Shown in pieces: positions 8,057 to 62,100 of a stretch of 64,000 bases of DNA. The DNA lies in contig JANQSC010000077.1 of assembly GCA_028284235.1 (NCBI GenBank), forward strand, positions 54,554 through 118,553, given 5' to 3'. The stretch comes from Opitutaceae bacterium (GTDB taxonomy: Bacteria > Verrucomicrobiota > Verrucomicrobiia > Opitutales > Opitutaceae). Each line of letters starts with the position of its first letter. Within the stretch, counting starts at the first letter, position 1. The notes beneath the pieces are model-generated. The model was not told where the DNA came from. It ran no database searches and saw only the letters and a list, made by a program, of their open reading frames with translations. Made by a program: the position numbers and the translations under genes.

Positions 8057-8088
8057 TTGTAGGGGCGTTGCTCGCGACGCCCCTACAA
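8057..8088. repeat. palindromic repeat TTGTAGGGGCGT-N8-ACGCCCCTACAA
   Basis: Perfect 12-bp arms; near-identical copy at 45578-45607. Confidence 0.9.
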
Positions 8089-9894: not shown

Positions 9895-10097
9895 TTAACA
9901 GTGATCTCTACGAGATCAAATTCCGCGTTGCGGAAGCAGGATCGCTTCGCGAACAGGATCTTGCGGATAGTTTTTTAGAGGCTTCCATCGAGAACTCTCA
10001 CAAACAAATCCTGTTCCCGTGAAACCACCGACGAGTCGGGGTCTTTGACGGGATCCTGCTGACGCGCAAGCGTCATTTCGCCGTAGGCGAATGTTAA
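9895..10097. repeat. three-hairpin repeat, inverted pair (heads outward)
   Basis: TTAACAGT[GATCTCtacGAGATC]AAA[TTCCGCgttGCGGAA]GCAGGAT[CGCttcGCG]AACAGGATC, with the mirrored unit ending ...GGCGAATGTTAA. Confidence 0.75.
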
Positions 10098-19931: not shown

Positions 19932-19964
19932 AAATACGAAGCGCATTACGATTCGGGTTTTGGA

Positions 19965-20045
19965 GGAACCACGAATGCACACGAATCAACACGAATTTTC
20001 CAGTCTCACATTCATTCGCGTCAATTCGTGTGCATTCGTGGTTTC
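19965..20045. repeat. ATTCGTG-type inverted repeat
   Basis: GGAACCACGAATGCACACGAATCAACACGAAT ... ATTCGCGTCAATTCGTGTGCATTCGTGGTTTC, near-perfect inverted arms. Confidence 0.9.
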
Positions 20046-20156
20046 AAAATAGTCCGTAACATCCTCCCAACTTGACACGCCGCTCAATCAGTACACGTTA
20101 CTAACTACAAAACGCGTCGTCGAACCGACGACCTCAACGAGAAAGGAGTGAACCCG

Positions 20157-21590: not shown

Positions 21591-21623
21591 AAAAACCAAA
21601 GATCTCAAATTGTTCGCTTTAGA

Positions 21624-21706
21624 GGAACCACGAATGCACGCGAATTAACACGAATTTTGCAGGCACACATTCATTCGCGACTATTCGTGTGTATTCGCGG
21701 TTTCAA
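21624..21706. repeat. second copy of ATTCGTG-type inverted repeat
   Basis: GGAACCACGAATGCACGCGAATTAACACGAATTTT ... ATTCGCGACTATTCGTGTGTATTCGCGGTTTC; same 33-nt spacing from the tail stop codon as at 19965. Confidence 0.9.
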
Positions 21707-21720
21707 ACAAGCAACAATCG

Positions 21721-26103: not shown

Positions 26104-26195
26104 AATCGCGGCCGATTCTCCACCTCGCCCCAGACGTGTCAACAACGACCCGGACAGGATCAGGCCTCGGCGAGTTGGACCTAGTTCCAGCACAA

Positions 26196-26230
26196 AAGGT
26201 GGAACGCGCCGTCCCGGCGCGTTTTTTCCA
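26196..26230. repeat. AAGGTGGAACGCGCCGTCCCGGCGCGTT hairpin repeat
   Basis: AACGCGCC-GTCCC-GGCGCGTT; second copy at 61812-61840. Confidence 0.8.
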
Positions 26231-39246: not shown

Positions 39247-39372
39247 GTAGGGCCTTCGCTTGCGAAGAGCCGCGTGAGCCGCTTATGGTATAGGACTTAT
39301 AGGTCCTATAGGTCTTATACGTCCTACAATGCCAGGCAGCTAACGCTGCATGGCGCAAGCGCGAGCCCTACA
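39247..39372. repeat. composite element: TAGGGC...GCCCTA inverted arms enclosing a 9-bp tandem array
   Basis: GTAGGGCCTTCGCTTGCGAAG left arm; GGACTTATA GGTCCTATA GGTCTTATA CGTCCTACA array; TGGCGCAAGCGCGAGCCCTAC right arm. Confidence 0.75.
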
Positions 39373-40968: not shown

Positions 40969-41141
40969 TTTAACAGTCGCCTCACGGCGAAATGACGCTT
41001 CGCGTCACAAGGATCCCATCCCGCTGAGCGGGACGGGACAAGGATTGAAGACGACCCGCAATATCTTGTTCGCGAAGCGATCCTGGTTCCGACCCGTCGA
41101 AGCGGGACGGAATTTGATCTCGAAGAGATCACTGTTTAAAA
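40969..41141. repeat. three-hairpin repeat, inverted pair (heads outward)
   Basis: TTTAACAG[TCGCCtcacGGCGA]AA[TGACGCttcGCGTCA]CAAGGAT[CCCATCCCGCTgAGCGGGACGGG]ACAAGGATT, with the opposite unit on the minus strand starting TTTAAACAGTGATCTC. Confidence 0.8.
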
Positions 41142-45577: not shown

Positions 45578-45607
45578 TGTAGGGGCGTTGCTTGCGACGC
45601 CCCTACA
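45578..45607. repeat. palindromic repeat TGTAGGGGCGT-N8-ACGCCCCTACA
   Basis: Near-identical to 8057-8088; between the ends of convergent genes 44273-45553 and 45618-46511. Confidence 0.9.
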
Positions 45608-46530: not shown

Positions 46531-46608
46531 TAGGGCTGGCGCTTGCGCCACGCCGCGTGGTTTTATATAGGACCTATACGTCCTATAGGTCCTATAAGTC
46601 CTATGGGC
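46531..46608. repeat. TAGGGC palindrome plus 9-bp tandem array
   Basis: TAGGGCTGGCGCTTGCGCCACGCCGCG followed by GACCTATAC GTCCTATAG GTCCTATAA GTCCTATGG. Confidence 0.75.
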
Positions 46609-51509: not shown

Positions 51510-51546
51510 GGGAGGCGCTTTCCAAAGCCTTGTGGCTCGTCAGAGC

Positions 51547-51708
51547 CATCCTTGTGACGCGGCACAGCGCGTCATTTCGCCGCGAGGCGACTGTTAAACA
51601 GATTTCTCGCAACAGTGATCTCTCCGAGATCAGATTCCGTCGAAGACCCCCGACGCTGTCGGTGGCCTCGCGGAAACAGGATCCCGCGTGCGCGGGAGCA
51701 AGATTCCG
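51547..51708. repeat. three-hairpin repeat, inverted pair (heads inward)
   Basis: CTTGTGACGC...GCGTCATTTCGCC...GGCGACTGTTAA | AACAGT[GATCTCtccGAGATC]...CAGGAT[CCCGCGtgCGCGGG]AGCAAGATT. Confidence 0.8.
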
Positions 51709-61725: not shown

Positions 61726-61811
61726 AAACCAATCCCGCCCTTATCGTAGATTTAAGCGACCGCCTCAACACCTTTCCTAAAACAGATGGTAACTGATCAG
61801 CATACCTACAT

Positions 61812-61840
61812 AAGGTGGAACGCGCCGTCCCGACGCGTTC
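61812..61840. repeat. AAGGTGGAACGCGCCGTCCCGACGCGTT hairpin repeat
   Basis: Second copy of the 26196-26230 repeat. Confidence 0.8.
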
Positions 61841-61924
61841 GCTCCATCGATGAACGCGAGATTGTAGCAACGTATCAACTAGACAGTGACGAGTGTAGTA
61901 GTCGTTGATTCCCCATTTTATTCA

Positions 61925-62100
61925 AAATCCTTGTCCAGGCCCTCAAAGAGGGACGGGATCCTTGTGACGCGGCATAGCGCGTCATTTCGCCGCGAGGCGA
62001 CTGTTAAGCTAATTTTTATAAACAGTGATCTCTTCGAGATCAAATTCCATCCCCCGAGCGGGATGGAACCAGGATCTGTCCTTGCAGGACAGACAAGGTC
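61925..62100. repeat. three-hairpin repeat, inverted pair (heads inward)
   Basis: AAATCCTTGTCC[..]GGGATCCTTGTGACGC..GCGTCATTTCGCC..GGCGACTGTTAA | AACAGT[GATCTCttcGAGATC]AAA[TTCCATCCC..GGGATGGAA]CCAGGAT[CTGTCCttgcAGGACAG]ACAAGGT. Confidence 0.85.

Follow-up and report, generated by a model that had tools for sequence, protein, structure and literature searches.

Positions 9,895 to 10,097 of the window (the whole analysed stretch of 64,000 nucleotides from an Opitutaceae bacterium) hold two short units on opposite strands, each composed of a head, three hairpins (hp1, hp2, and hp3), and short linkers (Table 1). All the stems and linkers named for this site in a first-pass annotation of the sequence are present, and the eight units to which that annotation referred were found as four pairs, near 9.9, 41.0, 51.6, and 62.0 kb. 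The pair had been described as an inverted one with heads outward. This arrangement holds for the copy at 9895-10097, whereas the idea of the same unit used twice does not, the partners belonging to two different classes that are distinguished by the start of hp1 (TGA or TCG). Linkers are equal in both units of this copy and the stems are quite different, those of the TCG-class partner (10095-10008 on the minus strand) being TTCGCC/GGCGAA, TGACGC/GCGTCA, and CCCGT...ACGGG, with a nested CCGAC/GTCGG hairpin inside hp3. The first bases of the spacer between the two units recur in several sister elements. Several units carry a second small palindrome, CACCGAC..GTCGGGGTC, nested in the loops of hp2 or hp3 or placed at a linker; such sites lie at 51640-51675 of the window and at three further loci (L014, 7000; L038, 10060; L026, 9900).

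Table 1. Three-hairpin units in the window and their parts
Feature	Position	Strand	Remarks
Whole tail-to-tail pair	9895..10097	.	ladder is the minimum-energy DNA fold
TGA-class unit	9897..9959	+	found by parser; covariance model 66.6 bits
head AACAG	9897-9901	+	
hp1 TGATCTC.TAC.GAGATCA	9902-9918	+	
AA	9919-9920	+	
hp2 TTCCGC.GTT.GCGGAA	9921-9935	+	
linker GCAGGA	9936-9941	+	
hp3 T.CGC.TTC.GCG.A	9942-9952	+	
linker ACAGGAT	9953-9959	+	
Tail-to-tail spacer	9960..10007	.	begins CTTGCGG
TCG-class partner unit	10008..10095	-	covariance model 57.7 bits
Second pair, TCG-class unit	40972..41045	+	tail-to-tail, 17-nt spacer
Second pair, TGA-class unit	41063..41136	-	tail-to-tail, 17-nt spacer
Third pair, TCG-class unit	51526..51595	-	head-to-head, 15-nt spacer
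Third pair, TGA-class unit	51611..51704	+	nested palindrome in hp2
Fourth pair, TCG-class unit	61927..62005	-	head-to-head, 15-nt spacer
Fourth pair, TGA-class unit	62021..62100	+	head-to-head, 15-nt spacer

A parser constrained to the AACAG head, the AA, three T...A hairpins, and the NCARGA linkers, every stem being left free, recovered 111 units of about 55-120 nt from 1.16 Mb of sequence of this genome, whereas the reversed control yielded none; most of this sequence was fetched around known matches, so that the density of units is not a genome average. Exact class heads occur 26 and 23 times, respectively, for the two classes in the 6.13 Mb genome. A covariance model trained on 24 units returned at least 91 hits for this genome, the candidates scored being limited to 92; it recognises the two units of the copy at 9895-10097 with E values of 1.8e-15 and 6e-13, the training set having included unit 9897-9959. 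Of 250 genomes in the GTDB family, 10 have matches: six of the 11 genus members examined, two genomes of one other genus, and two more with weak single hits. One unit of a carrier outside the genus, Opitutaceae bacterium isolate IP29b_bin.74, has the same TGATCTC hp1 stem as the window copy. In relatives, the parser identified 27 units (control, 0) with the same architecture and linkers and with other stems. A loose DNA pattern searched in 272 genomes of the order returned only background outside this genome. The family is centred on the genus and comprises roughly a hundred short DNA elements. At one locus (L106, 105-204 and 5809-5908), two near-identical units lie in the same orientation 5.6 kb apart and contain a long insert in hp2, of which a similar version appears again in G318. 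Separately, a unit-carrying relative harbors a full integron integrase (L233, G022:C68:106000-106935; 386 bits).

All 44 close pairs consist of units in opposite orientation, and in 43 of them the partners belong to different classes, TGA and TCG. Tail-to-tail pairs number 25 and head-to-head pairs 19, the heads-inward arrangement being nearly as common as the heads-outward one. Spacer lengths fall into rough groups of 15-24, 30-41, and 48-60 nt. Once oriented by the TGA-class unit, the spacers of four of the five length groups resemble one another more than shuffled spacers do (z 4.3 to 9.8), part of which may be explained by A/T-rich edges; the spacers therefore seem to share ancestry yet to have diverged. 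An exact TGA-class hp1 is carried by 32 of the 37 paired copies and by 6 of the 14 single copies (Fisher p 0.003). The sequences that flank one copy bear no relation to those around another, and nothing points to recent movement, since no two whole pairs exceed 88% identity. At one conserved gene junction (L041), a 169 bp element is present here and missing in five same-genus genomes, a difference most simply read as an insertion, although the exact element ends are not readable because the flanks have diverged; at a second synteny locus (L022), divergence is too great to define an empty site. Homologous but diverged spacers, better conserved pairs, and the absence of the L041 copy from five relatives indicate that the units are dispersed elements. 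Element ends read (T)TTAACAG...CTGTTAA(A), with short AACAG/CTGTT inverted ends. A search for sharp insertion boundaries at the elements yielded none, and exact direct repeats (2-12 nt) immediately at the two ends are absent from all pairs; a MITE with target duplication was accordingly discarded.

In the predicted DNA fold of the copy at 9895-10097 (z = -5.7), the heads and linkers of both units cross-pair (TTAACA/TGTTAA, GCAGGAT/ATCCTGC, and ACAGGAT/ATCCTGT), leaving six hairpins to protrude from the resulting ladder. The second pair of the window, near 41.0 kb, does not form the full ladder in its predicted fold. Among the minimum-energy DNA folds of 43 pairs, cross-pairing occurs at the head in 26, at the inner linker in 25, and at the outer linker in 31, a given step not being formed in 12-18 of the 43. 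A mobile repeat recognised by shape, in which two different units pair via their fixed linkers to build a ladder made of four-way junctions, and which a structure-reading protein other than a RAYT mobilises or uses, appears rather unlikely.

The loops provide a means of distinguishing folded DNA from RNA. Loops follow the rule GNA or GNNA when read on the strand running tail-to-head (5'-ATCCTGT...CTGTT-3'); at hp1, 58 of 63 TGA-class triloops and 35 of 36 TCG-class tetraloops conform to it. With distinct hairpins counted once, 99 loops obey the rule on this strand, compared with 8 for the opposite strand (binomial p 4e-21, a statistic that ignores shared ancestry); in relatives, where stems differ, the corresponding numbers are 40 and 0. 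Among the other C-G-closed hairpins of the genome, 27% of triloops and 17% of tetraloops are of this kind when both strands are allowed. GNA and GNNA loops form unusually stable DNA mini-hairpins (PMC4686876). Only 15 of 37 GNNA loops are GNRA, the third base being without purine bias. RNA loops, by comparison, would favour GNRA. Stem mismatches show no excess of G-T over A-C (12 versus 17). Loops that are fixed to one strand and lack a GNRA or G-U bias therefore favour folded DNA and point to units that act as such rather than as an RNA gene. The strand-specific GNA/GNNA loops also constitute a simple sequence test for DNA-level versus RNA-level hairpins that could be extended to other repeats.

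A structured RNA, with hairpins serving stability or termination at the 3' end of an mRNA or forming a small RNA and with RNA pairing under selection, would be consistent with the location of the elements, the strong two-sided covariation described below, and the RNA fold of the copy at 9895-10097 (z -5.3). Elements lie mostly downstream of genes and prefer convergent junctions (28 of 64 as against 56 of 311 other gaps, p 2e-5), divergent junctions being depleted (p 0.006), with gene context derived from a simple codon-bias caller rather than from annotation. Besides the loops and mismatches, however, the occurrence of both orientations, with opposite-strand pairs at each site, argues against an RNA product, as do T-runs that precede rather than follow the hairpins in unit orientation. 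Nor do the units match any Rfam family, either at gathering level or at E<=1, in agreement with the earlier statement that they belong to no named REP, ERIC, or ncRNA family. A structured RNA is hence considered improbable.

In a loop-padded alignment of 24 distinct units, 98.9% of stem cells are paired, and stem changes are two-sided in 66 cells and one-sided in none, these counts referring to cells and not to independent events in units that share ancestry. None of 500 shuffles matches the paired percentage or the covariation score of these units, both of which are destroyed when stem partners are slid out of register. The proposal that structure rather than sequence is conserved is borne out by these counts and by the recurrence of the same linkers with other stems in other species. 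Template switching can perfect palindromes (PMC8794818), and covariation alone is therefore no proof of selection: correction by this route could yield stem covariation without it. Both selection and template-switch correction are possible causes of the perfect stems. In the extreme case, the units would be relics in which template switching copies arm onto arm, covariation reflecting mutation and not function. Such purely mutational maintenance rests on a documented mechanism and would account for stem changes that are all two-sided without intermediates; linkers of partners also resemble each other more than they resemble those of other pairs, which could, however, also stem from subfamily structure. 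In contrast, loop orientation is strictly kept, and hp1 and the linkers have been retained while spacers diverged; correction within a hairpin would not keep linkers. The constancy of loop orientation and of the linkers speaks against correction as the sole cause, and a purely mutational origin of the pattern has a low probability.

Three Y1 transposase genes are present in this genome. One, a RAYT gene (L009), is flanked by GTAG palindromes, and another (L010) has a GGTGGAACGCG...CGTCCCGGCGCGTTT repeat on both sides; at the Y1 loci examined here and in related genomes, no three-hairpin units flank the gene. One genome (G009, 85% complete) contains about ten units, and no Y1 gene was found in it. 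None of the Y1 genes tested is linked to units, and the mobilising enzyme may have been lost. A 3.3 kb contig with units at both ends (G022, C2) was dismissed as an autonomous element since it holds an unrelated large gene. The existence of genuine RAYT genes, one with GTAG palindromes beside it, and the REPIN-like pairing of units would fit a RAYT-dependent GTAG REP class after loss of its tag, but with neither a GTAG nor a CGTC tag conserved at either unit end (the head is AACAG), three hairpins per unit, and units at none of the Y1 loci tested, this derivation is very unlikely. Resemblance to integron attC sites, that is, folded single-strand recombination sites of variable sequence whose AAC/GTT core motifs recall the element ends, was rejected as extremely improbable because this genome has no integron integrase scoring above the family cut-off (the matches present are partial and Xer-like), cassette arrays are absent, the elements lie between conserved chromosomal genes, and a six-hairpin ladder is unlike attC.

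Several other repeats share the window. GTAGGGC...GCGCTTGCGCC palindromes at 39247, 46530, 54331, and 63940, of the same kind as those at the RAYT gene, are an ordinary GTAG REP family of this genome. A GGTGGAACGCG...CGTCCCGGCGCGTTT repeat as found at the L010 gene lies at 26192-26230 and 61808-61846, nine-base tandem repeats (TATAGGNCC / TATACGTCC) at 39289-39326 and 46566-46603, and a palindrome TGTAGGGGCGTTGC(T/C)...CGACGCCCCTACA in two copies at 8058-8087 and 45578-45607. A repeat of 90 nt whose inverted arms are AACCACGAATGCACACGAAT / ATTCGTGTGCATTCGTGGTT (19959-20048 and 21618-21707) is adjoined by another repeated stretch (19867 and 21526).

Taken together, the evidence speaks for an interspersed, REPIN-like element at the level of DNA rather than for an ncRNA, which refines the earlier reading. 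The copy at 9895-10097 is probably one copy of a non-autonomous element of this type, and the three-hairpin pairs are rather likely to represent a new REPIN-like family. In such an element, the hairpins would fold when the DNA is single-stranded, on the lagging strand or upon extrusion from supercoiled DNA, and a protein would read the fold and the fixed linkers together. The leading, still tentative candidate for this reader is an HUH-type single-strand transposase acting in trans, which would have copied the element around the genome in the past. Weighing against this reading are the Y1 genes without units, the genome with units in which no Y1 gene was found, the lack of target-site duplications and sharp boundaries, the limited identity between pairs, and the folds in which ladder steps are missing. 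The shape of the element would be kept by selection, by template-switch correction, or by both.

The family falls outside the GTAG and CGTC REP classes, since its units lack both tags and comprise three stem-loops instead of a single one of 20-50 nt. BOX/ERIC-type mosaic elements are likewise modular or long-palindrome intergenic elements but, as judged from their architecture, differ from the present family. Among known systems, REPINs share an inverted pair conserved as a unit with a diverged spacer, compensatory stem changes, single units more decayed than doublets, and an intergenic location (PMC3116915). The family differs from REPINs in lacking the GTAG tag, in joining two different unit classes per pair, each unit with three hairpins and fixed linkers, and in occurring in both tail-to-tail and head-to-head forms, with no linked RAYT found at the Y1 loci tested. 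BIMEs and enterobacterial REPs are likewise intergenic palindromes alternating in orientation (PMC8266576), yet their units measure 20-50 nt, whereas in the present family stems are not sequence-conserved and pairs rarely form longer arrays. Family identity would lie with the architecture and the linkers, not with the sequence of the stems, and such a repeat would therefore escape sequence-based repeat finders as well as surveys of REPs. For CGTC REPs, too, a class of palindromic repeats, no dedicated transposase is known (PMC3733652), though the present family lacks their tag and has a multi-hairpin architecture; if an enzyme does read the element, the spread of orphan palindromes such as the CGTC REPs would become testable.
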